Below are positions 2,755 to 45,544 of a stretch of 64,000 bases of DNA, piece by piece (position 1 is the stretch's first letter; each line of letters opens with the position of its first letter). The translations under genes and the position numbers were made by a program. The notes under the pieces are model-generated. The model worked only from the letters and a program-made list of their open reading frames with translations, was not told where the DNA came from and did not search any database. Source of the DNA: Propionispora vibrioides (GTDB lineage: Bacteria > Bacillota > Negativicutes > Propionisporales > Propionisporaceae); NCBI RefSeq assembly GCF_900110485.1, contig NZ_FODY01000008.1, positions 1 through 64,000 on the forward strand. Direction: 5' to 3'.

Positions 2755-3975
2755 ATGAACGGATCAATAAAAGAGCGAATAATAAAAAAGGGCCAGGACA
2801 AGCATGGAAAAATTAGAACAAACCTAAAGGTCTATGATGTTTACTACCGTTACAACGATCCTATTACAGGCAAAAATAATCAAACTTCAAAAAAAGGATT
2901 CCGCACTAAAGCTGAGGCCGAAGCTTATCTACTTGATGTTAATACGAGACAGGCTACCAGCACTTTTATTCCGATTAAGAATCTAACCGTCAGGGAATAT
3001 CTACAGGATTGGCTCAAAAACTACGCTGAAACTCATTTGCGGCAAAATACCGCAGCCGGTTATCGTAGCCTGGTGGAAAAGCATATTCTGCCTATAATCG
3101 GCAATATCGACTTACAGAAGCTAAACGCCAGCCATATAGATAATTTGTATGCCTTAAAGCTAACTAGTGGCAGACTTGACGGTAAAGGTGGCTTAGCGCC
3201 CAAATCAGTCATGTATATTCACAGGGTTTTACATGAGGCGCTTGAACACGCAGCCAAGAAACAAATAATCTTTAATAATCCTGTTAAACGAGTTACCAAT
3301 ACACCTAAACTTAGAAAATACAAAGGAGAAATTTACTCCCCGGAAGAAATTCGGTCCTTGCTTAAGGCAGCCAAAGACACAGATTGGGAAGTGCCTATTT
3401 CCTTGGCAGCAATATGTGGAATGAGACGAGGAGAAATCTTAGGACTTAGGAAAACAGAAATCAATCTAGACACAGGAACAATCAAAATTTCCAAACAGCT
3501 AATTGCCACCAACAACGGACCTATGTTCGAAAGCCCCAAAAGCGAAGACAGCAACAGAATTATTAATGCTCCCATAGAAGTACTGGATATGATTAATCTT
3601 CATATTACTAAGCAAGAAAAAAAGATGGCGCTATTGGACACAGAATATAAAAATTATAGCTTACTTGTATGTAAAGCAGACGGCAATCCGATTGACCCTC
3701 GTATCTTTAGTAAAAATTTTTCTAAATTCTTATCGTCCAACCAATTTAAGCATATTCGTTTCCATGACCTGCGGCATTCCTGTGCGACCTTAATGCTAAA
3801 TTCGGGAGTCCCCTTAAAAGTAGCCTCACAAATCCTCGGGCATAGCACCATTGGAATTACTGCCGATCTCTATACTCACGTAATCGACAACATGAAGAAA
3901 GATGCCGCCATCAAAGTAGGTAGCGAAATCTTCGGAAACAACACAACAAACAGTGACAATTCTACACCTAAATGA
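2755..3975 (+). CDS. int: Tyrosine recombinase / phage-type integrase
   Basis: A 406-aa integrase, full length for the family. The N-terminal arm-binding domain (about 1-65) is followed by a SAM-like core-binding domain (about 70-180, with the TVREYLQDWL start) and a catalytic domain. Catalytic residues visible: Arg in GMRRGEILGLR (about 225), HxxR in HDLRHSCATL (about 337-340), His in ILGHSTIGIT (about 362) and the nucleophile Tyr in LYTHV (about 373). It starts at ATG after GGGAGGAT. Its 3' end lies next to tRNA-Ser(CGA), the presumed integration target. Confidence 0.93.
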   Translation: MNGSIKERIIKKGQDKHGKIRTNLKVYDVYYRYNDPITGKNNQTSKKGFRTKAEAEAYLLDVNTRQATSTFIPIKNLTVREYLQDWLKNYAETHLRQNTAAGYRSLVEKHILPIIGNIDLQKLNASHIDNLYALKLTSGRLDGKGGLAPKSVMYIHRVLHEALEHAAKKQIIFNNPVKRVTNTPKLRKYKGEIYSPEEIRSLLKAAKDTDWEVPISLAAICGMRRGEILGLRKTEINLDTGTIKISKQLIATNNGPMFESPKSEDSNRIINAPIEVLDMINLHITKQEKKMALLDTEYKNYSLLVCKADGNPIDPRIFSKNFSKFLSSNQFKHIRFHDLRHSCATLMLNSGVPLKVASQILGHSTIGITADLYTHVIDNMKKDAAIKVGSEIFGNNTTNSDNSTPK

Positions 3976-3992
3976 AGTGTAAAAAGTCGCTT

Positions 3993-4011
3993 GTTACCAC
4001 CATGTTACCAC
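3993..4011. repeat. Direct repeat GTTACCAC x2, possible integrase arm sites
   Basis: GTTACCAC occurs at 3993-4000 and 4004-4011 with an 11-bp period (one helical turn), between the integrase stop and the tRNA 3' end. This is the place and spacing expected for arm-type integrase binding sites of an attachment region. The assignment is inference. Confidence 0.35.
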
Positions 4012-4033
4012 GATTGATATAAAAAACAGCAAA

Positions 4034-4066
4034 GGGTTACAGCGCAAAAGCTGTAACCCCTATTTT
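4034..4066 (+). terminator. Rho-independent terminator after integrase
   Basis: GGGTTACAGC (4034-4043) pairs with GCTGTAACCC (4050-4059) around a short GCAAAA loop, followed by a T-rich stretch. It ends the integrase transcript before the oppositely oriented tRNA gene. Confidence 0.8.
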
Positions 4067-4077
4067 TACTAGGTTTA

Positions 4078-4167
<90 letters not shown>

Positions 4168-4758: not shown

Positions 4759-6456
4759 TCAAACTTTGAATTTACTGATAATTTGATTCAACTCAACCGC
4801 CATTTTGGCCAAGTCCTCGGCGCTTGCCGAAACACCTTGCAGCTTGAAGTTTTGTTGGGTTGCGGCACCGGCTACCGTCTCGGTGCCGGCACTGGTTTCC
4901 TCGGCCACCGCACTGACACTCTGCACATTAGCGACAATGGATTGCATTCCATGCGCCGTTTCCTCAACAGCATTGGCAATCTGCGCTATGCCCGATTGGG
5001 CAGCCTCCAATTTGCTCACAATGGTCGTAAAGCCCTCTGCCGCATCGGCTGCAGCAACCTTGCCTGCCGCCACTTCCTCATTGGCCCGTTTTACCAGATT
5101 AACCGAATAGGAAACATCACCGGTCATTTTTTTAATGATTTCCCCAATATGCCGCGTTGCTTCTGCACTCTGTTCCGCCAGTTTCCTAACTTCTTCGGCC
5201 ACTACCGCAAAGCCTTTGCCGGCCTCACCGGCGCGGGCGGCTTCAATCGCTGCGTTCAAAGCCAGCAAGTTAGTCTGTCCGGCAATACTGCCGATAACGG
5301 TGATAATCTCCTGTATCCGTGCCGAACCCTCTGTCAGAAAGCCGGATACCGTAGTGATTTCCTGCATAGCCTTCTCAATCGTCTCGTTTTGTGACACGAC
5401 TTTGCCGATCAAATGCATACCTTCCTTGGCATCCTCTACCGCGTTGCCTGTAGTGCGGTTCACTTCTGCCGCGCTGGCACTCATTTCTTCAGCTCCGGCA
5501 GTTACTTCCTCAACGACTGCGGATATCTCGGTAATACTGCTTGTATTTTGGCCGGACCCGGTTGAAATCTCACTGATTGTACGGGATATGATTTCTGAGT
5601 TTTGCAGTTGCTCTTCTACCGCCGCCGTCAACTCCTCACTGGAAGCCGCCAGAACATCGGCATCTTGTCTGACCTTGCCGACGATCTCCCGCAAGGCGGT
5701 TTTCATGGTAATAACGGCATTGGCCATATCCCCGATCTCATCATTGCGTACAGCCTTCTGATCCTGCGTACTCAAGTCCAGCATGCTTACGGCTTTGACT
5801 TCATTCCCCAGATTGTGGAGTCTCCTGGCAAGGGACCGGCTATACCAGACGATCAGCGCTACCAGTAAAAGAATACCAAGTATACTGAACCCAATGACCA
5901 GCTTAAATACAACAGCCTGATGTTCATTCTGTTCCTGAACCCGCTCATGCAGCACGATGTCCTGCGCTTTGGACACCACTTCAAACTGGGAATCAATAAC
6001 CGCTGTTTTTTGCTTGGCCGAATCCAGTAGCGCCGTAAAGGAAGGATCGTTGCGTTTTTTGGCGCTAATGACTGCGTTAATTTCTTCTACATAGGACGTA
6101 AGCATAGTCGCCAGCTTCTCACCCTCCCGTTTGGTGCCTGCCGCAGTAGCTGCCGCCGCAAACTCTTTTACCTGCTTTACACTCTTGCCAAACTCATCCA
6201 TTGCGGTAACGGCCAGTGTCTCGTCGTTATAGCCCAGAAAGCCCCGCAAGCCACTCAGCCCGGCATGAAAATCCGACTTCGATTTTTGCAAGTTTATCGT
6301 CCGTTCCACTGTACCGGACAGCATGTCTTTGTAGTTGTCCGTAGCGGCTTCAAACTGATACATAATACCGCTTACCAGTGCGACTAGCAGTGCAATGGCC
6401 AGACTAAATATTCCGATTAACTGCATTCTTATTGTGATCCGTTTCATCTTTTCCAT
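4759..6456 (-). CDS. Methyl-accepting chemotaxis protein
   Basis: A 565-aa transmembrane chemoreceptor. TM1 is at about residues 11-30, then an extracytoplasmic four-helix-bundle-like sensor of about 150 residues, TM2 at about 187-207, a HAMP segment, and a long cytoplasmic signalling domain. The hairpin tip matches the MCP consensus ([37 protein letters not shown]), the contact point for CheA/CheW. Signal specificity cannot be read from sequence. A CheW-like gene lies 118 bp upstream on the same strand. The gene ends shortly after the last helix with no CheR-docking pentapeptide. Confidence 0.92.
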
Positions 6457-6574
6457 CCTCCGTCTCTATAGTATTAGTCCTAACAGTTCCAACATTGTTA
6501 AGTTATATAAAAGTTTATTATGTATCATAGAAAATCAATTGACCGCAGCGCCCACTTGCGTACGGCACTCTTTG

Positions 6575-6880
6575 TTATTCGCTGATGCGCCAGATGCGAA
6601 AGATTCCAGCCGGTTCCTGCACTGGCTCGGTTCCTTGCAAATCTTCTACTTTAATAACCTCATCCACCAGTAGTGCCACTTGCAATCCGTGAGAGTTCAG
6701 CAACAAAGCCTGTTGGCCAGCAGAGTCAGTAAGTTCCGTCTGTATTTTTATCACCGGGATGCAATTTGACCGTAAAGCCTGGACATCCTGTACCTGGCTT
6801 GTCATTCCACCAACGGCGGCACTAATTGTTCCATATTGCTGATTGCCTAAACGAAATACTACAATCCGGTTGTTGCTCAT
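6575..6880 (-). CDS. Short CheW-like protein
   Basis: The start NRIVVFRLGNQQYGTIS resembles the first beta strands of CheW (VVFRLG-x-Q-x-YG), and the segment around ALLVDEVIKVEDL resembles its second subdomain. CheW couples chemoreceptors to CheA. At 101 aa it is clearly shorter than normal CheW (about 150), and the central LRG-containing stretch is missing or reduced. It may be a trimmed or specialised adaptor for the neighbouring receptor. ATG start after AGGAGG on the minus strand. Confidence 0.6.
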   Translation of the reverse strand: MSNNRIVVFRLGNQQYGTISAAVGGMTSQVQDVQALRSNCIPVIKIQTELTDSAGQQALLLNSHGLQVALLVDEVIKVEDLQGTEPVQEPAGIFRIWRISE

Positions 6881-7094
6881 GCCAGGTTTCCTCCTTTACT
6901 AGAAATTGCCTTGTTCCAAAGCAAGGACTTGTCTTGCTCTTATATTACTCCGATAAGCTGTTCGCATCATGTAGCATAAGATATAAATAATAATTATTAT
7001 TTATTAACTATAAAACTCTATAAATAACAAGCATTGCCGACAATTTTCGTCAAATATAGCAAACCTATAAAAAGGTAGAGGAAAAATTGCTTTT

Positions 7095-7122
7095 TTGTCA
7101 AATAGTAGGGTTAGAGTAAAAT
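7095..7122 (+). promoter_or_regulatory. Candidate sigma-70-type promoter for the response regulator
   Basis: TTGTCA (7095-7100) and TAAAAT (7117-7122) are separated by 16 bp, 42 bp upstream of the regulator ATG. They lie in an otherwise gene-free AT-rich stretch (6881-7163) between divergent genes. Confidence 0.45.
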
Positions 7123-7163
7123 AGTGAGCAATACCGGAAAAGGTCATGGAGTGAGGAATAACA

Positions 7164-7618
7164 ATGAATCAGACAACTAATGGACGAATCTTGATTGTCG
7201 ATGATGATGAAGCCTATCTGGCATCATTACGGCGGATTATGCGCGGTCATTTCGATGTAGTAACCACCAAAGATCCTGTTCAGGCTTTAAAGATCTTTGA
7301 GTTCCAAGGCCCCTTTGCCGTCGTTATTTCTGATTACCGCATGCCTTTTATGAACGGCATTGAGCTTTTTTCCCGCATTCAGAACCTGGACAAGCAGGTT
7401 CAGCGAATTATGCTGACCGGACACGCCGAGCTGCAAATGGCTATTGACGCGATAAATCACGGCAAGATCAACGCCTTTTTAACCAAGCCGATCCCAGCTA
7501 CGTCCATCCGCTCCATTGTCATTGATTCCATTCAAGCCTATAATCAAAACCAAGGCAGTCATTCCCGGCAGGCAAGCAACGGCGAAAGTCCGGCTGCCTA
7601 TCGCTTGCCCAAAAGCAC
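7164..7618 (+). pseudogene. Response regulator, N-terminal (REC) half, split by the prophage
   Basis: Residues 1-125 form a receiver domain: ILIVDDDEAYL (acidic pair), the phospho-acceptor Asp in VVISDYRMP, the Thr/Ser switch in IMLTGHAE and the conserved Lys in FLTKPI. The gene is interrupted after ...LPKS-T at 7618 by the Mu-like prophage. The frame runs on into phage DNA as far as 7754 and adds about 45 unrelated residues, so a stand-alone REC protein could still be made. The missing DNA-binding half is at 45264-45482. A promoter candidate lies at 7095-7122. Confidence 0.9.
7614..7618. repeat. Left copy of the 5-bp target-site duplication (AGCAC)
   Basis: AGCAC at 7614-7618 is repeated at 45264-45268. 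The two copies flank the inverted prophage ends. Five base pairs is the duplication length made by Mu. Collapsing the two copies restores one continuous reading frame of the response regulator. Confidence 0.9.
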
Positions 7619-10880: not shown

Positions 10881-11014
10881 TGCAACTGTTATGCGTTGGC
10901 GTCCGAAAAGCTGGTGTGACAGCCATCGCCTATATCAAAAATGGCCATATTGTCATTCGAATGCTTCCCCCTTCAAAACTGCCGCTGACCGAAAGGGTGA
11001 AGTCGTATGGTTGA
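10880..11014 (+). CDS. Small early protein overlapping the transposase start
   Basis: 44 codons from ATG 10880, which overlaps the stop of the preceding gene, to TGA 11012-11014, which overlaps the transposase ATG at 11007. Such tight overlaps imply translational coupling. The peptide (VGVRKAGVTAIAYIKNGHIVI...) has beta-strand character. Function unknown. Confidence 0.5.
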   Translation: MQLLCVGVRKAGVTAIAYIKNGHIVIRMLPPSKLPLTERVKSYG

Positions 11015-12965
11015 AACCTTTCTCAGCGTAGCGGAAACGGCAGCCCTGCTTGAAACTAGCGAAAGAACAATCCAAAGAAATGCGATGGCTGGCAAATATG
11101 GTGAATTTCGCTATGTGGAATCGACTAGTGGCGGCGGACGCGGCGGCAAGATGCTTCAAATCAGGCTGGACGCACTACCGGAAAGCTATCAGACCAAGTA
11201 CATCGAAGAACAGGGCCTGGGCACCAACGTAAAAAAGGTCAAAACGGTCAGCGCCTATGACCAGGCACCGGCGTGGGCAAGGGAAAAAGCGCACCGGAAC
11301 CACGCGATTTTGGACGCCTTCGAAAGTTACCTGCTGCGACCCGGCAAGAAAACCGAACTGACGGAACAATTCGTCCGGGAATGGAACCAGGAACACCTCG
11401 ATGAAACGGTATCCAAAACCACGCTGTATCGCTGGAAAAAAGGCTATCAAAAAGATGGTTTATCCGCTCTCCTGCCCCAGTACGGCCAGAACAGCGGCAA
11501 GCGGTTTGCCATCAGTGATGAACTACTGACAGAGTTTATCCGGCTTTTAAAAAAGAATCTCAAAATTGCCGAGTGTCACCGCATTCTGGAACTGATAGCC
11601 AAGAAAAACGGCGAGACTTGCCCCAGCGATGCCACCCTGCGGCGGATTGCCAAAGAACTGCCGACGGCGGTCCTGGTGGCCATTCAGGAAGGCAAAAAAG
11701 CGTTCTATAACAAATGCCAGACCTTCACCCGCCGCGACCCGGAAAGCGTCCGGGCCGGACAAGTATTTGTAGGCGATCACCGGAAATTCGACTTTTTTAT
11801 CCTGGGGCCACGCGGCACCTGGGTGCGCCCATGGGTAACGGCCTGGATGGATATGCGAAGCGGCAAACTAGTAAGCTGGACGGTCACCTTCTCCCCGAAT
11901 ACCGACACTATTATGGCATCGTTTGCGGAAGCAGCGCTGGACCCGGCTATCGGGCTGCCACGCGAAGTGTATCTCGACAATGGACGAGACTATTGTAATG
12001 AACGGTTTGCCGGTCGCGGCTTCCGCGAACGGAAAGCCGCTCTAGAAGCGGACAAGCAGCGTGTGGTGCCGATGATGGAACGGCTAGGGATTATCACTCA
12101 CTTTGCCATTCCGGAGAACGCCCGCGCTAAAACGATTGAACGCGTGGCATTTCTGAATATGTCCAATTGGTTCTGCCCGCATATGGACACCTACTGCGGG
12201 CGTAATACGGCCCATCGTCCGGAAAGATTGGCCGATAAGCTGAAAGGCGACAAAAACAAAGCGAAGTATAATATCACCCTGGAACAATTAGCAGAAATCT
12301 TCGGCGGCTATGTCCGCTACATTTATAATAAACGACCATCAGAACGCGGCAGAGGCCGCGAAGGTGAGTGCCCGGACGAAACCTTTATCCGGACGCGCCT
12401 GCCAGTGCGGCAGACAACCGAAGCGGTCATGCAGCACTTCCTTCAGAAACAGACGGGTCGCTACCGGGTGGGCCGCAACGGCATCACCTTCCGGGGGCGT
12501 GAATACTATTCGCCGGAAATGACTTTACACAAGAAAAAAGACTTGCTGATCAGTTGCCGACAAAACGACGTCAGCACCATTTATGTGTATGACCTGGATG
12601 AACGCCCACTGTTTACGGCGACACTGATGCCGCTGCGCGATGCCCTGCATGAATCGCCGGAAGGTATGCATGACGACGGTTCGCGCAAGAAAGCCGAATG
12701 GGAAACGGTCAAAAATCATTGGGCATACCAGGCGGCTGAGAGCGGCGACGCTCCCAGTATGGCGGAAATCGTGGACCTGTTCCGCGAATATGGTCCCCAA
12801 TCACCTGACCCACAACCGACTACCGTCACCGAAATGGTGCCGGTGCCTGCCGAACTGCGGGAAGCAATCCGGTATAATAGCGCCAACCAAGCCACTGGCA
12901 CGGACGGCAGGAGCGTTTTTGAAATGATGCACGGAACTAAAATTGAACGACGGAAAGGGGAATAA
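11007..12965 (+). CDS. A: MuA-type DDE transposase
   Basis: Catalyses replicative transposition of the phage genome. The 652-aa length matches MuA (663). The N-terminal domain (about 1-60) is a winged-HTH of the MuA enhancer-binding type (SVAETAALLETSERTIQRNA). A second HTH set follows (about 85-215). The catalytic RNase H-like core carries Asp in VGDHRKFDF (about 257), Asp in YLDNGRDY (about 325) and Glu in AKTIERVAF (about 378). The C-terminal part holds the Mu-transposase beta-barrel and the MuB-contacting tail. MuB follows after 5 bp. Confidence 0.93.
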   Translation: MVETFLSVAETAALLETSERTIQRNAMAGKYGEFRYVESTSGGGRGGKMLQIRLDALPESYQTKYIEEQGLGTNVKKVKTVSAYDQAPAWAREKAHRNHAILDAFESYLLRPGKKTELTEQFVREWNQEHLDETVSKTTLYRWKKGYQKDGLSALLPQYGQNSGKRFAISDELLTEFIRLLKKNLKIAECHRILELIAKKNGETCPSDATLRRIAKELPTAVLVAIQEGKKAFYNKCQTFTRRDPESVRAGQVFVGDHRKFDFFILGPRGTWVRPWVTAWMDMRSGKLVSWTVTFSPNTDTIMASFAEAALDPAIGLPREVYLDNGRDYCNERFAGRGFRERKAALEADKQRVVPMMERLGIITHFAIPENARAKTIERVAFLNMSNWFCPHMDTYCGRNTAHRPERLADKLKGDKNKAKYNITLEQLAEIFGGYVRYIYNKRPSERGRGREGECPDETFIRTRLPVRQTTEAVMQHFLQKQTGRYRVGRNGITFRGREYYSPEMTLHKKKDLLISCRQNDVSTIYVYDLDERPLFTATLMPLRDALHESPEGMHDDGSRKKAEWETVKNHWAYQAAESGDAPSMAEIVDLFREYGPQSPDPQPTTVTEMVPVPAELREAIRYNSANQATGTDGRSVFEMMHGTKIERRKGE

Positions 12966-12970
12966 AGATC

Positions 12971-13915
12971 ATGGATTTTCAGGAAATAGAGCAATTTGTC
13001 ACTGAGGTAAGAAACCGGGTCAACCAATATCTAAGTTCAGGCAGTAATGAAATTTCCCAGGAGCAACTGGCCAAACAAGCAGGTATTTCCGGTGGGGCGT
13101 TGTCCTCATTCCGCGCGGGAAATTATCAGGGAAACAATGAAAACGTAGCCAAAAAACTCATGCCGGTACTGGACGCCATTAAGTCGCGGGAAACGGCAGC
13201 TCTGACCGTCAAGGAACCGGAAATTATCGAGACTGCCATCATGCGCGAAATGTGGTTCGGCCTGCAGTACGCTTCCGACCGGAACGACGTCATTGTTATT
13301 TACGGCGCACCGGGCATAGGAAAAACCATAACCCTGGAAAAATACGTGAAAAACAATCCCACCGCCCTGTTCGTCACTGCCAGCCCCAACATTCGAAGCG
13401 GGCGCGATATTATGGAAGAACTGCTGGAAGCCATGAATAAACGGGCCGAAGGCCGGAACAAGGCCCTAGAAAAAAGCATCATTAGCAGCCTGAAGCACTC
13501 CAACCGGATGATTATCATCGATGAAGCTCACTTTCTACGCCTGGACGGGCTGGAAACCTTGCGCCGCATTTACGACGCCACAAAATGCCCGCTGGTGTTG
13601 GTAGGAAACCCCAAGATCATGGAGGCAATTACCGAGAAAAACAAAACCGTTACCGGGCAATTTTTTAGTCGGGCGGTGCGAATTGCCCTGGATACCAAGG
13701 TCCCCATGGACGATGTGAAAGGCATTGTGCTACAGAATGGCGTCAATCTGACGGATGAATGCCTGCAGGAACTATACAAGGTGGCTAATATGATCGGCGC
13801 GCTGCGAATTATGACAAAGCTGTTTCTTTTCGCCTGGACGATTGCCAACAAGAAAAACCAGCCCATTTCCCTGGAAGATATTCTGACTGCCAGAAAAATT
13901 ATCATCAGCGTGTGA
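12971..13915 (+). CDS. B: MuB-type target-selection ATPase
   Basis: An AAA+ ATPase that binds target DNA and delivers it to the transposase. 314 aa (MuB 312). An N-terminal HTH (about 30-60, ISQEQLAKQAGISGGALSSFRAG) is followed by Walker A GAPGIGKT (about 112-119) and Walker B MIIIDEAH (about 179-186), then a helical C-terminal domain. The N-terminal HTH plus ATPase order is that of MuB. It lies directly downstream of the transposase, with ATG 12971 after AAAGGGG. Confidence 0.93.
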   Translation: MDFQEIEQFVTEVRNRVNQYLSSGSNEISQEQLAKQAGISGGALSSFRAGNYQGNNENVAKKLMPVLDAIKSRETAALTVKEPEIIETAIMREMWFGLQYASDRNDVIVIYGAPGIGKTITLEKYVKNNPTALFVTASPNIRSGRDIMEELLEAMNKRAEGRNKALEKSIISSLKHSNRMIIIDEAHFLRLDGLETLRRIYDATKCPLVLVGNPKIMEAITEKNKTVTGQFFSRAVRIALDTKVPMDDVKGIVLQNGVNLTDECLQELYKVANMIGALRIMTKLFLFAWTIANKKNQPISLEDILTARKIIISV

Positions 13916-17238: not shown

Positions 17239-17985
17239 ACGGAACGCTTTATCAATCAAATCATCCAGGGGGATTGTCTCCCCATTCTGGAGCAGTTGCC
17301 ATCGGATAGCGTCGATGCGGTCATTACCGACCCGCCTTATTCGTCCGGCGGCTCAACGATAGCCCAAAAGACGCAGGACCCGATTAAAAAGTATGAACAG
17401 ACAACTAACAAATTGGTTCACCGCCCTTCTTTCCTGGGCGACAACAAAGACTCCCGGTCCTGGCTGCATTGGTGCGTTTTATGGATTGGTGAATGTTATC
17501 GGATTTTAAAGCCCGGCGGTTATTTCCTAATGTTCAGTGACTGGCGGCAACTGCCGCTGGCCACGGACGCACTGCAAATGGGGGAACTGGCCTGGCGGGG
17601 CATCATTGCCTGGGACAAAACCGAAGGTGCCCGCGCACCGCATAAAGGCTACTTTAAACATCAGTGCGAGTACATTGTGTGGGGGACGAAAGGCCCCTGC
17701 CACAAGGCCGAGCATGCCGGTCCGTATCCCGGCTGTTACCGCTTCCCGGTCAAACAGACGGATAAATTCCATTTAGCCGGGAAGCCAACACCGCTGATGG
17801 AACAGCTTGTCACCATCGTGCCGGTCGGCGGCATTATCTTGGACCCCTTTACCGGCTCGGGTACATTGCCGAAGGCCGCCCAGAACATGGGGCGGAATTT
17901 CATCGCCATTGAAAAAACGAGCGTGTACGCACAGGTGGCAATGGAGCGGGTAGAAAGCACACCTGTACCCGTATATTTACAATAG
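17239..17985 (+). CDS. Beta-class DNA methyltransferase with apparent ACG start
   Basis: N6-adenine/N4-cytosine methylase. DPPY (motif IV) is near residue 31, followed by a target-recognition region, and the AdoMet-binding DPFTGSGT (motif I) is near residue 209, the beta-class order. About 249 codons. The conserved beginning ERFINQIIQGDCLPIL lies upstream of the first usual start (TTG 17296). The best-placed start is ACG 17239, 6 nt after GGGGGGAG. A phage orphan methylase protecting DNA from host restriction is likely. The ACG may be a degraded ATG. Confidence 0.85.
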   Translation, partial: TERFINQIIQGDCLPILEQLPSDSVDAVITDPPYSSGGSTIAQKTQDPIKKYEQTTNKLVHRPSFLGDNKDSRSWLHWCVLWIGECYRILKPGGYFLMFSDWRQLPLATDALQMGELAWRGIIAWDKTEGARAPHKGYFKHQCEYIVWGTKGPCHKAEHAGPYPGCYRFPVKQTDKFHLAGKPTPLMEQLVTIVPVGGIILDPFTGSGTLPKAAQNMGRNFIAIEKTSVYAQVAMERVESTPVPVYLQ

Positions 17986-39828: not shown

Positions 39829-40698
39829 ATGGCCGAGCAACAGAGAAACAACCTGCCGGAAGAAGCGAAATGGGAACCCGGCATCTACCAGCTGGAGGTC
39901 ACGGACCTGGCCGAAGGCGGCATCAACGGCGTTATGAACACCCAGGGCAAGGAACTGGCGAACCGAACCGTGTATCTGAAACAGCTTTGCGACCAATTGG
40001 CAGCTGCTATTCCGGGCACCGAACAATTTGACGATATCATCCGGCAGCTGGCATCCTTGGATGTCAGCAAGGTTGAGCGCCGGACGGACCACCTGGAACG
40101 CGTCGTCGGCGACCTGGCCCTGGCCCTGGATGCAAACATGATGTATCCGGATGCCGACGCCCTGGTGGTGGAAAACTTCGACAATCCTGACCAGGTGGAC
40201 ATGATGGAAGCGCAAGTCATTTCCGTGGTTTCCGGCGATGATTCCATCGACCTGGTGGACAGCACCGGCATTGTGATTGGTGCGTATTACATGCTGACTG
40301 ACGGCGAGAACCAGGAAACAGTTAAAACCAAGTCGCTGCATGTGGCTGGCGACACGCACCGGGTGATTCTGGAAACTCCTGTCGTGAATCAGTATGTATC
40401 GGGCCGCGCCAAATTGTACCGTTCTTCCGTGGCGATATACGACGGAAAGGCATGGGGCGGCGGCAATATCAAAACGGACATGTGGACACCGGGCGAAACC
40501 TGGAAAGGTTCCACGACGGCCCAGCCGGTTAGCGCCGCCGTGGCCTATACTTCACAAAGCGACTTCACCGTCACCGGCGCGGTGTTTGAAAACGGCAAAT
40601 TGATTTTGGGCAGTGAATCTATTGGCATTGCGCTGGTTGCCACGGGCGGCGGCGCTGGTACTTGGCAGCAAGTTAATGCGGGAGGCGACAATAAATAA
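39829..40698 (+). CDS. Tail fibre-like protein upstream of the DGR target
   Basis: 289 aa. The N-terminal half looks like an attachment domain plus coiled coil (KELANRTVYLKQLCDQLAAA, RRTDHLERVVGDLALALDANM). The C-terminal part is beta-rich (VISVVSGDDSIDLVDSTGIVIGAYYMLTDGENQETVKTK; Gly-rich GGGAGTW near the end). Probably the shaft or adaptor carrying the variable receptor-binding protein; its stop overlaps that gene's ATG (TAATG). Confidence 0.65.
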   Translation: MAEQQRNNLPEEAKWEPGIYQLEVTDLAEGGINGVMNTQGKELANRTVYLKQLCDQLAAAIPGTEQFDDIIRQLASLDVSKVERRTDHLERVVGDLALALDANMMYPDADALVVENFDNPDQVDMMEAQVISVVSGDDSIDLVDSTGIVIGAYYMLTDGENQETVKTKSLHVAGDTHRVILETPVVNQYVSGRAKLYRSSVAIYDGKAWGGGNIKTDMWTPGETWKGSTTAQPVSAAVAYTSQSDFTVTGAVFENGKLILGSESIGIALVATGGGAGTWQQVNAGGDNK

Positions 40699-41618
40699 TG
40701 GCATTAGATAAAGCGTTCTTTGATAAAACCTATCCCTGGGCCGGAATAAAGACCGAAACCATCGACGGGCAGGAAATGGTGTTCATCCCCAAATTCTATT
40801 ACAAAACAGGCGTGGCACCAGTCGGCAGCCAGCAGGCCGGGAAGAAGTGCTGGTGGGTTGTTGACCGCCCGATCGCCGGATATCGCATACACCCCGCCTT
40901 TATGAAAGACGGTGCGGAAATTCCCGGCTTTTGGGTCGGCGCGTATGAATGCTCTGTTGACGCTGGAGCCAGCAGCAAGGCCGCGTCCGTATCCGGCAAA
41001 TCCCCGCTGGTTTCCATCGACTTCCCGACGATGCAGAACCGCTGCACCGCCAGAAACGTCAGCGGGCAAACCGGCTGGCACCTGTGGAATATCTACGAAT
41101 TGGCCGCCACACAAATGCTTTGCCTGATTGAACTGGGATCGCCGGATGTGCAGGCCAAGATTGGCAGCGGCAACAGCAACAGTTCCGCCGCCGTGGCCAC
41201 CGGGTCCACCAATGCGAAATGGCGCGGTATCTCCGAGCTTTGGGGCAATGTCTGGCACATGGTGGACGGCCTCAAAGGCAGCGGCACAACCATTCAAATC
41301 CTTGACCGCCTGGGCAATGGCACCTATATAAACACGGGCGTGGCTGCTCTTTCGGCGGCGCATGGCTACCCCAAAGAAATGATGGACACGTCGGGCAGCG
41401 GGTTTGACTTCAACGACATATTTGTGCCGAAAAGCATTGACCAGACGGCAAGCAATGGAACCTTTGGTGACTATTACTGGTATGCCGTCAGTGACTTTGT
41501 TTGCTATCACGGTGGCTACTGGGGTTACGGGGCCTACGACGGGCTGTTCTGCTTGAACCTCAACGGTCCCGCGTCGTACTCCAACGTCACCTTAGGCGGT
41601 CGCCTCGCAAAGGTGTAG
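40698..41618 (+). CDS. DGR target: variable C-type-lectin-like tail protein
   Basis: 306 aa. The C-terminal two thirds show the formylglycine-generating-enzyme/C-type lectin fold used by most DGR variable proteins: DGQEMVFIPKFYYKTG, IHPAFMKDG..PGFWVGAYEC, GWHLWNIYELAATQMLCLIELGS, KWRGISELWGNVWHMVDGL, and the terminal GGRLAKV. The last 35 codons form the variable repeat (41505-41610). By analogy with Mtd of phage BPP-1 it should be the receptor-binding tip, with variable residues displayed on the lectin face. Overlaps the upstream gene; avd follows at 41692. Confidence 0.9.
   Translation: MALDKAFFDKTYPWAGIKTETIDGQEMVFIPKFYYKTGVAPVGSQQAGKKCWWVVDRPIAGYRIHPAFMKDGAEIPGFWVGAYECSVDAGASSKAASVSGKSPLVSIDFPTMQNRCTARNVSGQTGWHLWNIYELAATQMLCLIELGSPDVQAKIGSGNSNSSAAVATGSTNAKWRGISELWGNVWHMVDGLKGSGTTIQILDRLGNGTYINTGVAALSAAHGYPKEMMDTSGSGFDFNDIFVPKSIDQTASNGTFGDYYWYAVSDFVCYHGGYWGYGAYDGLFCLNLNGPASYSNVTLGGRLAKV
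41505..41610 (+). repeat. DGR variable repeat (VR)
   Basis: 106 bp matching the template repeat at 42053-42158 with a constant 548-bp offset. Eight differences, all where the TR has A: 41508 C, 41517 T, 41524 G, 41526 T, 41565 G, 41566 G, 41590 C, 41592 T. They alter seven residues (N to H, N to Y, D to G, N to Y, N to G, N to T, I to L) of the lectin-like C-terminus. Identity breaks off after GCCTCGCAA, just before the stop codon. Confidence 0.95.
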
Positions 41619-41691
41619 TCTGAATTCTGTAAACTGATACCTGTATTTCCGGGCGATAGCACGGAACGCACTTTGAAAATTGGTGGATTGA

Positions 41692-42030
41692 ATGGCAATG
41701 GAAGAATTGAAATTGTTAACTCGCTTGGAGGAACTTGACCAATATAGTCACATCGTCCTCCAACAGTATCCGAAGCATGAAAAGTATGTACTGGCCACGC
41801 AAATCCGTCAAACGCTGGCCGAGCTAATTCATCAGACGATCCGATGCGCAAAACGGTTTCACAAAAAGACAAGCCTGCAGGACATGGACATAGAGGTCGA
41901 ATACCTGCGGGCCTTGATCCGGAAAAGCCACGCACTAGGGTACATCAATATCCACCGTTACGAAGTTTGGATCGGACACGTCAATGAAATCGGCAAAATT
42001 GTTGGCGGCTGGATAAAGGCCACGAAGTAA
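41692..42030 (+). CDS. avd: Avd, DGR accessory variability determinant
   Basis: 112 aa, all-helical four-helix bundle: EELKLLTRLEELDQYSHIVLQQYPKHEKYVLATQIRQTLAELIHQTIRCAKR...LQDMDIEVEYLRALIRKSHALGYINIHRYEVWIGHVNEIGKIVGGWIKATK. The YP-K-E-KYVLA-QIR and LGYIN-Y-W motifs are those of bAvd-type proteins. Avd forms a basic pentamer that binds the reverse transcriptase and the TR RNA. It sits between VR and TR, as in BPP-1. Confidence 0.9.
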   Translation: MAMEELKLLTRLEELDQYSHIVLQQYPKHEKYVLATQIRQTLAELIHQTIRCAKRFHKKTSLQDMDIEVEYLRALIRKSHALGYINIHRYEVWIGHVNEIGKIVGGWIKATK

Positions 42031-42052
42031 AGTTGTTTCTAGGGCAAGACTT

Positions 42053-42158
42053 TATAACGGTGGCAACTGGGATAACGGGGCCTACGACGGGCTGTTCTGC
42101 TTGAACCTCAACAATCCCGCGTCGTACTCCAACGTCAACATAGGCGGTCGCCTCGCAA
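42053..42158 (+). repeat. DGR template repeat (TR)
   Basis: Noncoding 106-bp template between avd and the reverse transcriptase. It has 25 adenines, of which 8 differ from the VR, while none of the 81 other bases differ. In the VR frame it contains eight AAY codons (AAC or AAT), which adenine mutagenesis can vary widely without producing a stop codon, a hallmark of DGR templates. The TR RNA is copied by the error-prone RT and the cDNA replaces the VR. Confidence 0.95.
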
Positions 42159-42325
42159 TTTACATTTTTGGCCAGAAGTTGGGCATCTTACGGGAACCCA
42201 TCCAGCGCCAGTAATTTGGGAGTCTTGTCCTTCCCTGCAAGGGAAAACATCAACAAAACAGGGCCACAAGTAAGCCAAAGCCTAAAGCGGTCCTGAATTC
42301 TCTGAATCCAGGAAGAAGATGGAAA

Positions 42326-43414
42326 ATGCCTAAAACCTACTCGCAGCTTTATGAACGAATAACCAGTTTTGAAAATCTTTATCTGGCGTATTGCGAAGCC
42401 AGGCGCGGAAGGCGTTATCGCGGGGACGTTTTGCGGTTCCATCAAAAGCATGAAGAAACACTGTTAAATCTGCGCCAGGAATTAAAGACGAAAACCTGGC
42501 AGCCCGGCCCTTACTGGGAATTTCTATGCACGACCGAGGTTAAAAGGCGGGTCATCCATGCCCCGGCCTTCATTGACCGGGTCGTACACCACGCCCTGGC
42601 CAACGTAACAAGGCCGCTATTTGAAAAGAAATATATCTTTGACAGTTATGCGACTATTAACGGCAAAGGCACCCACAAAGCGGTCTGCCGCGTACAGGAA
42701 TTCCTGCGCCGGGCCGGGGCGTCGTGGGGCACGGTTTACGTGCTGCAATGCGACATATCAAAATATTACCCCAGCATGGACCACGACGTACTGATGGAAC
42801 AAATTCAAAGAACCATCCGGGATAAAGATGTTTTATGGTTGTGGCGTCAAATCATTGCCGGATTTAACGACGACACCGGCAAGGGGCTTCCGATCGGGGC
42901 CTTGACTAGCCAGATAGCGGCCAACATATACCTGAATGCCCTGGACCACTTTATTAAAGAATGCATGCAGGTAAAGTATTACGTCCGGTACATGGATGAC
43001 TTCGTGCTGCTGGGACCGTCGAAAGAATATCTTTGGAACGCGCTGGCTGATATTAAGTGGATGCTAGAATGCCACTTGAAACTGAAACTAAACCCTAAAA
43101 CAAAGATTTACCCGGCCTCTCGCGGCGTCGATTTTGCCGGTTATCGGACTTTCACCACTCATAAGCTGCCGCGCAAAAGAAACATCAAGGCAGCGAAAAA
43201 GCGTTTCCAGCATTTAAGCAAGCTGTACAGCAAAGGCATGGCTTCACTGGACCGGGTGAAAGCAAGCGTCATGTCCTTCCTGGGATACGTGAAGCATTGC
43301 CAGGCCCGGCGCACAACAATTTCCACCCTGTCCAGATTAACCCTAAAGAAAAAAGGAGGACCATTCAATGGCAAAGACAGCCCTGGTACTTACGACGAAT
43401 ATCAGCCAGATTGA
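42326..43414 (+). CDS. DGR reverse transcriptase
   Basis: 362 aa. RT motifs in order: a CDISKYYPSMDHDVL motif (first catalytic Asp, about 149), GLPIGALTSQIAANIYLNALDHFIKE (about 193-218, where the (L/I)G-x-x-x-SQ signature marks DGR enzymes), and YVRYMDDFVLLG (about 224-235, catalytic Asp pair), then KTKIYPASRGVDFAGYR. There is no maturase or RNase H domain. The last 16 or so residues are encoded over the 5' end of the next gene. It makes adenine-specific errors when copying TR RNA. Confidence 0.95.
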   Translation: MPKTYSQLYERITSFENLYLAYCEARRGRRYRGDVLRFHQKHEETLLNLRQELKTKTWQPGPYWEFLCTTEVKRRVIHAPAFIDRVVHHALANVTRPLFEKKYIFDSYATINGKGTHKAVCRVQEFLRRAGASWGTVYVLQCDISKYYPSMDHDVLMEQIQRTIRDKDVLWLWRQIIAGFNDDTGKGLPIGALTSQIAANIYLNALDHFIKECMQVKYYVRYMDDFVLLGPSKEYLWNALADIKWMLECHLKLKLNPKTKIYPASRGVDFAGYRTFTTHKLPRKRNIKAAKKRFQHLSKLYSKGMASLDRVKASVMSFLGYVKHCQARRTTISTLSRLTLKKKGGPFNGKDSPGTYDEYQPD

Positions 43415-44819
43415 CTGCTCCCAAATGTCAACCATTACCGGCCTGGCGATCGTGTCCACCGAACCCGCCAACACAACGACAAAATACGCATTCAAGGCGG
43501 CATCCGGAGCATGGAGAAGATGGAACACAACATCGTCGGCATGGGAAAACCTTCCCACCCAGGAATTAACGGCCACCAGCCTATTGACGGAAGGCAACAC
43601 AAAAGCGGAACTGCTTGCTGTTGCGGTGGCCAATCTGCAATGGCTGGCCGGTGCAAAAAATGACGCTGCAGTCGCTTTGACAATGACCGACGCAGCCACG
43701 GAGCCGCCCAGCGTAACGTCAATCACGGCCAGCGGTACGACCGCCAGCACGGTGTATGAAAAGGTCATAACGTCCGACAGTATCACAATTACATCGGTAG
43801 ACAGCGCGGTCGATATTCTGGACATCAAAGTCGAAAAAACGGAAGTGGCCGGTGGCACCGTCCAGGTCAAGGCATCCATTCAGGGAAATGACAATAGCTG
43901 GAGCGACTGGCGGACAGTCGAAAATTATGTGACTACTCCGGCGACGGAAGCCAAAGCCATCAAAATACAGGCCACCTTAACCGCTCCCACCATTAACGTG
44001 TCGCAGGCATCCCTGGCCAGCGTATCCGTCAAACACAGAACCGACAATGTGGCCGTATTTGCCGAAGGCACCGGCACCTGCGTGACCAAAACGTATAACT
44101 TCATCCGGGAAATGCAGCGCGCCCACCTGATGGTTAAAAGGCCCGTGGTGCCGGACACTGAAATCAAAGCCTATATTTCCCTGCGGCCAAAGCCTTGTTC
44201 TGTCAGCCAGGAGGTGCTGGGTGTAGGCGATGGCGCACAGCATACCTATACACTGACACATCCGGCGAATGTAGCCGCCCACACCTTCGCGCTGTACTTT
44301 AATGGCACAAAGCAGTCTTCCGGGTTTGCTTTCAGCAGCACCGACGGGAAAGTGACCTGCACCGCCCCGGCTGGCGTCTCTGTGACTGCTGATTATGACT
44401 ATAACTGGCTGCCGGAAGAATTCTTGCCTATGTCCTATGATGCCCAGTATCCCGACGCCCATAACTCCGAAATGGTGAACGATCAATTCAATTATGTGGC
44501 AACAGAAGAAACCGACCCCAAAGGTTCGGTTTCGGCCATGAGAATTGATTTAATCCAGAAAAAAGGCACCGTCACCGGCGAGGCGGTCGGCACCGGGTCG
44601 GGCGCGCTGCAGTCTTATGAACTGGACCATAAGGCAAAGATTGAAACACTGGTCATAAAGGCTGCTGGCAGCCCGCTGGCGCAGGCGGACTGGACATACA
44701 AGGATAAGACCAACACTCTGTTTGTTACGGCCCCCCAGGGGGCTGTAATCACGGCAGACTATGACTGGGCCGCCGATCCGGTTTACCTTGATAACTTCGC
44801 CTGCATCTGGAATGAATAA
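43368..44819 (+). CDS. Tail fibre / virion surface protein downstream of the DGR
   Basis: 483 aa, Thr/Ser/Ala-rich and beta-sandwich-like throughout. Two related 75-residue units near 285-370 and 415-480 (VGDGAQHTYTLTHPA...VTCTAPAGVSVTADYDYN; VGTGSGALQSYELDHKA...LFVTAPQGAVITADYDWA) look like duplicated carbohydrate- or Ig-like modules. ATG after AAAGGAGGA, inside the RT 3' end. Probably a second fibre or fibre-supporting protein. Confidence 0.7.
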   Translation: MAKTALVLTTNISQIDCSQMSTITGLAIVSTEPANTTTKYAFKAASGAWRRWNTTSSAWENLPTQELTATSLLTEGNTKAELLAVAVANLQWLAGAKNDAAVALTMTDAATEPPSVTSITASGTTASTVYEKVITSDSITITSVDSAVDILDIKVEKTEVAGGTVQVKASIQGNDNSWSDWRTVENYVTTPATEAKAIKIQATLTAPTINVSQASLASVSVKHRTDNVAVFAEGTGTCVTKTYNFIREMQRAHLMVKRPVVPDTEIKAYISLRPKPCSVSQEVLGVGDGAQHTYTLTHPANVAAHTFALYFNGTKQSSGFAFSSTDGKVTCTAPAGVSVTADYDYNWLPEEFLPMSYDAQYPDAHNSEMVNDQFNYVATEETDPKGSVSAMRIDLIQKKGTVTGEAVGTGSGALQSYELDHKAKIETLVIKAAGSPLAQADWTYKDKTNTLFVTAPQGAVITADYDWAADPVYLDNFACIWNE

Positions 44820-45128: not shown

Positions 45129-45263
45129 CCCTTTAAATCCTTTTTAAGGGCCATTAAAGAAAGAAAAAAATATGAATAAAAAACCACTTTGCATAGCAGA
45201 TTCGCAAAGTGGTTTTTTCCCAAAATAGATGCGGAAAATTCCCAAACTAGGTGCGCGCTTATA
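45129..45263. promoter_or_regulatory. Right end: inverted transposase-binding-like sites
   Basis: Read inward from the terminus (45263): TATAAGCGCGCACCTAGTTT then GGGAA (R1), and a second copy GCATCTATTTTGGGAAAAAA (R2, 45232-45213). R1 aligns base for base with left-end L1 with TAGT at the same distance from the terminus; R2 matches L2. Further in, CCCTTTAAATCCTTTTTAA at 45129-45147 repeats the left subterminal motif at 7801-7819. Confidence 0.65.
45178..45218 (+). terminator. Terminator at the end of the late operon
   Basis: AAAAACCACTTTGC pairs with GCAAAGTGGTTTTT around an 11-nt loop with T6 after the stem. It stops late transcription before the phage right end. The T-run and following bases also form the inner right-end transposase-like site. 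Confidence 0.85.
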
Positions 45264-45482
45264 AGCACCGATAACGAATTATGCGTTCCGCTGACAGTAA
45301 AAGAAAAAGAAGTACTCGCTTTGCTGGCCAAGGGATTCTCCAATGACGAAATATCGGCGGAGCTGCATATCACGGTTGGCACCGTTAAAAGTCATATGAA
45401 TAATTTATTTGGCAAACTGGAAGTAAATAGCCGTTCCAAGGTGGTCGCCAAAGGGCTGGAACTGGGTCTGATTAAGACCTGA
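45264..45482 (+). pseudogene. Response regulator, C-terminal LuxR-type HTH half
   Basis: After the second AGCAC copy the frame reads STDNELCVPLTVKEKEVLALLAKGFSNDEISAELHITVGTVKSHMNNLFGKLEVNSRSKVV, a LuxR/NarL-type HTH, ending at TGA 45480-45482. Joined to 7164-7618 it gives one continuous protein (...LPKST-DNELCV...). The frame is open upstream to a TTG at 45189 in phage DNA, so an HTH-only fragment could be made from a phage-derived transcript. Confidence 0.9.
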
Positions 45483-45500
45483 CAGCCGAAGTGTCCCGTA

Positions 45501-45544
45501 AATAAAGAAAGAAGCACCCCATACAGGGTGCTTCTTTCTTTATT
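45501..45544. terminator. Bidirectional terminator, 19-bp perfect stem
   Basis: AATAAAGAAAGAAGCACCC (45501-45519) and its exact complement (45526-45544) flank a 6-nt loop; A/T-rich flanks allow use in both directions. It lies between the convergent response-regulator remnant and the HDOD regulator. Confidence 0.9.

Follow-up and report, generated by a model that had tools for sequence, protein, structure and literature searches.

We identified what is almost certainly a complete phage-type diversity-generating retroelement (DGR), expected to work by the BPP-1 model, close to the right end of a Mu-like (transposable) prophage in Propionispora vibrioides. The analysis covered a 64,000-nucleotide stretch of contig NZ_FODY01000008.1, referred to here as the window; coordinates are positions in the window, on the plus strand unless stated. 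Family models, a fold match, a tree of reverse transcriptases (RTs), and the mapping of the insertion site support the DGR identity, the Mu-like prophage, and the BPP-1 layout.

An adenine-specific repeat pair

Pairwise comparison defined a variable repeat (VR, 41505-41610) and a template repeat (TR, 42053-42158), each 106 nt long and offset by 548 nt, whose likeness ends abruptly beyond both repeat limits. The two copies differ at eight positions, all of which fall on the 25 adenines of the TR and none on its 81 remaining bases (P = 3.6e-6 for all eight landing on A by chance). We recomputed these values, and they agree exactly with those given in the preliminary description. Because all mismatches sit at its adenines, the downstream copy was assigned as the TR. 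The substitutions comprise three A to T, three A to G, and two A to C changes, and they alter seven codons from TR to VR (AAC to CAC, AAC to TAC twice, GAT to GGT, AAT to GGT, AAC to ACC, and ATA to TTA). The TR holds eight AAY codons in the VR reading frame. Both repeats share a GC-rich 3' end, GGCGGTCGCCTCGC, which corresponds to the position of the IMH in BPP-1. The VR lies in the last 35 codons of the target ORF and stops 5 nt ahead of its stop codon.

When we searched the whole genome with the TR, the only matches were the TR itself and the VR at 41505-41610, and no second VR or remote target was found in the genome. Viral contigs searched with a 30-base exact pattern yielded no close TR relatives, and there was no DNA match in plasmids.

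The target protein and its neighbor

The DGR target (variable) protein (40698-41618, 306 aa) matches a tail protein family (phrog_5302, 3.8e-41), has a predicted C-type-lectin-like fold, and is encoded by a gene that carries the VR at its 3' end, the arrangement by which DGR targets are recognized. We modeled the protein from an alignment with 21 relatives (pLDDT 90.6). The best matches of this model among solved structures were the DGR variable proteins TaqVP (5vf4, Z 26.8), TvpA (Z 14.8), and Mtd (Z about 12-13), with the related formylglycine-generating-enzyme fold ranking between them. The closest of these, TaqVP of Thermus aquaticus (PMC6328139), matched over 251 residues at 2.6 Å with 25% identity.

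Immediately upstream lies a tail-fiber-like gene (39829-40698) that matches the tail fiber families phrog_3100/4209 at its N-terminus, and its stop codon overlaps the target start in a TAATG motif (40695-40701). The corresponding genes are separate in the related locus L003 and form one ORF of about 850 aa in three others (L030, L046, and L047), which points to a split or a fusion of the target gene within this lineage.

The modeled fold and the gene's position suggest that the target may be the receptor-binding protein of the phage, in which case, by analogy with BPP-1, the phage may be able to retarget it, as had been proposed. Since the receptor role is deduced from those two features, and since the function of the DGR target in Hankyphage has been stated as unknown (PMC6199706), we considered whether a functional DGR might instead diversify another tail or surface part, such as a decoration or host-modifying protein. 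The target is, however, placed after the baseplate and tail-fiber genes, matches a tail-protein family, and has the Mtd/TaqVP fold in common, and we regard such an alternative role as quite improbable.

Avd and the reverse transcriptase

The avd gene (41692-42030) encodes a 112-aa accessory variability determinant that scores above the curated cut-offs of both NCBIfam NF033474 (104.6 bits; cut-off, 80) and Pfam PF22296 (96.1 bits; cut-off, 40) and also matches phrog_3206, the Avd protein of DGRs. A single-sequence search of Avd against the PDB returned no match. The whole genome contains one copy of avd and one copy of the target gene. The RT (42326-43414, 362 aa) matches phrog_1423 (1.6e-124) and, among solved structures, the BPP-1 RT (8ub7, 3.1e-53) ahead of group II intron RTs (6.3e-22). 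Its IGALTSQ and YMDD motifs bear out the IG-x-x-x-SQ signature and YMDD reported in the preliminary description, and the order of target with VR, avd, TR, and RT, likened there to that of BPP-1, is indeed the order annotated in that phage.

To place the enzyme in a DGR tree, a check that had been proposed at the outset, we built a tree of 23 RTs, in which a branch with 100/100 support separated 13 DGR RTs from 9 group II intron-like RTs. The RT was located inside the DGR clade, which includes BPP-1, BalMu-1, VP58.5, ACA1, and ANMV-1. If it were instead a group II intron, retron, or defense RT, the repeats would be a coincidence or an ordinary gene duplication. The RT does match the group II intron model TIGR04416, but weakly (131 bits, under the cut-off of 300), and PADLOC RT models match it as well. 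Against this stand the tree, the SQ found where SP would stand, the adjoining avd, and a repeat pair with eight of eight mismatches at adenines. We therefore rejected the group II intron and defense-RT identities, and the chance that this enzyme is anything of the kind seems negligible.

The end of the RT gene is overlapped over its last 47 nt by a gene (43368-44819) with weak similarity to DUF2460 and to a virion structural family; this gene is kept at the same position in the related loci L003 and L127.

The target-site hairpin

Homing in BPP-1 depends on an inverted repeat beyond the VR, whose GC-rich stem spans 7-10 bp and whose loop has the sequence GRNA (PMC3240598). Applying this rule, we found a hairpin, TTCCGGGC-GATA-GCACGGAA (41647-41666), with an 8-bp stem that contains one G-A mismatch and with a loop of the GRNA type. 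It begins 36 nt past the VR, compared to 4-34 bp for the examples in PMC3240598. Shuffling the 81 nt past the VR gave a chance of 0.0006 for an equally good hairpin with such a loop. A comparison of 114 related loci showed GRNA loops in 39 of 94 best hairpins past the VR, vs. 4 of 79 for an upstream control stretch. The hairpin is thus recognizable as the DGR type and, judged from its sequence, probably usable.

This bears on the statement in the preliminary description that all parts of the element look intact. The statement holds for the RT, avd, and target ORFs, which are open and fit their families well, but the hairpin, not considered there, has a mismatched stem. Folded as DNA, it reaches −6.6 kcal/mol, compared to −10.1 kcal/mol for a mismatch-free stem of the same sequence type in locus L044, and the single G-A mismatch could lower homing. 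Taken further, the element might be a decayed or attenuated DGR that was once active but in which the mismatch now lowers or stops homing, leaving the VR frozen; in BPP-1, disruption of the stem reduced tropism switching over 1000-fold (PMC3240598). Minor stem changes are nonetheless tolerated in BPP-1 (PMC3240598), and single stem mismatches occur in other loci as well, including BalMu-1 and L141, the mismatches elsewhere being mostly T-G. With open ORFs and good family matches besides, we consider decay unlikely.

A related idea concerns the TR, which in the window reads SYSN (AAC to TAC) where the TRs of most aligned relatives read SN-N, and which has 8 AAY codons where that of L030 has 10. 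Conceivably, DGR-like events have stripped the TR of mutable codons and, together with the mismatched hairpin, the element is drifting towards a fixed target, although we think this improbable.

Related loci

RT searches yielded 80 genomic loci and a further 56 in viral contigs; a scan of genome contigs with a single RT query found no relative, whereas an alignment query did recover relatives. Among RT relatives with named sources, the nearest comes from Selenomonas, and a further one belongs to Selenomonadaceae. The uncultivated locus L003 (IMG/VR, IMGVR_UViG_3300005086_000198) has an RT 69-70% identical and a target 66% identical to those of the window and the same gene order on both sides, but differs in having its own TR sequence and a perfect hairpin stem.

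Across 118 loci, window included, 1618 of 1710 VR/TR mismatches were at adenines, a proportion inflated by the filter, which kept loci having a pair with at least 70% of mismatches at adenine; the nearest loci, compared unfiltered, had the same adenine pattern. Two contigs of relatives (L135/L136) are 99.7% identical over 7.8 kb and have an identical TR, and of the 10 differences between their VRs, 9 are at TR adenines. Loci L147, L149, and L150 likewise are same-TR contigs differing at VR adenines. By comparison of their sequences, these relatives show the DGR mechanism at work in nature in the family; their RTs are only 37-38% identical to that of the window. The share of TR adenines changed in the VR is 0.32 in the window, towards the bottom of the range for these loci (median, 0.48). 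We considered this low divergence as a special mark of the element and dropped it, as the nearest relatives (L003, L126, and L128) are equally low.

Several other loci departed from the usual pattern. The RT of L009 / L036 (G081:C34), on a very long branch, has IGLGSDVAQ replacing IGxxxSQ and adjoins a repeat pair that differs mostly at adenines (10 of 11 mismatches), marking a divergent DGR-like element. A DGR RT with YCDD for YMDD was present at L008 / L035 (G031:C37), where only 174 nt separate the starts of the two repeats. At L034 (G012:C20), each of the 12 VR/TR differences is A to G, compared to a mixed spectrum elsewhere, which could point to another bias in misreading or to selection.

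The prophage and its insertion site

Contig C55 of a same-genus genome (G002) carries an uninterrupted insertion site, in which window positions 5101-7618 and 45263-45534 are matched back to back with a 6-bp overlap, and we therefore placed the prophage at about 7619 to 45263 (about 37.6 kb, ends 5'-TATAA...TTATA-3'). It is flanked by the 5-bp sequence AGCAC, with a 6-bp reading, AAGCAC, also possible, and splits a response-regulator gene (7164-7618 / 45269-45482) that is unbroken in G002. Joining the flanks restores a continuous reading frame for a response regulator whose end is of the LuxR type. PHROGs matches ahead of the cassette include, in order, a Mu-like transposase (11007-12965, phrog_310, 3.1e-93), a MuB-like DNA transposition protein (12971-13915, phrog_296, 1.1e-58), terminase, portal, protease, sheath, tape measure, and baseplate, and Pfam detected Mu Gp48 in the prophage. 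The transposase and MuB-like genes, the Mu-type head and contractile-tail genes, and the 5-bp target duplication (or 6 bp, in the other reading) are the features of a Mu-like phage, and together with the mapped empty site they back the Mu-like prophage setting that had been proposed.

The prophage also contains an ORF (17296-17985) whose DPPY motif makes it a probable DNA methyltransferase gene. Elsewhere in the window (2755-4167), an integrase-like ORF of 406 aa lies beside a tRNA gene (4081-4167, minus strand), which suggests that the start of the contig holds a further integrated element.

Mechanism and comparison with known systems

Under the BPP-1 model, TR RNA would be copied by the RT with Avd, adenines would be misread during copying, and the resulting cDNA would replace the VR in the last 35 codons of the C-type-lectin-like tail protein and leave the TR unchanged, such that progeny phages would carry different binding surfaces. 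By analogy with BPP-1, we infer that homing may operate in the phage today and may alter host attachment.

The BPP-1 DGR (mtd-avd-TR-brt) resembles the present element in part order, adenine-specific VR/TR pair, Avd, RT clade, C-type-lectin-like target, and a GRNA-loop hairpin past the VR. BPP-1 differs in not being Mu-like, its record giving a His-tRNA attachment site; its target protein and RT are only distantly similar to ours, and the stem mismatch is found in the present hairpin. The Bacteroides Hankyphage, a Mu-like transposable prophage flanked by 5-bp target duplications, likewise carries a DGR (PMC6199706), but has a host of another phylum, and its VR forms the C-terminal part (residues 2188-2225) of a very large ORF, whereas the target here is a separate 306-aa gene. 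The nearest RT in the phage collection (42.6%) is that of Bacillus phage BalMu-1 (NC_030945), where tail genes, target, avd, TR, and RT follow one another as they do here; downstream of the RT, BalMu-1 has holin/endolysin genes in place of the structural-type gene at 43368-44819.

This element contributes a single-target DGR with well-defined limits, housed in a transposable prophage whose empty site is mapped, and its natural single hairpin mismatch offers a ready test of the extent of stem pairing needed for homing outside BPP-1. It leaves the general picture of DGRs unchanged: known clades are made up of DGRs from Firmicutes phages that have tail targets (PMC8144416), and transposable DGR prophages have already been described, among them BalMu-1 and Hankyphage, the latter with a Mu-like transposase and 5-bp repeats (PMC6199706). 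We conclude that the element is a clear but ordinary further example of a known system, from whose other members it differs in small ways.
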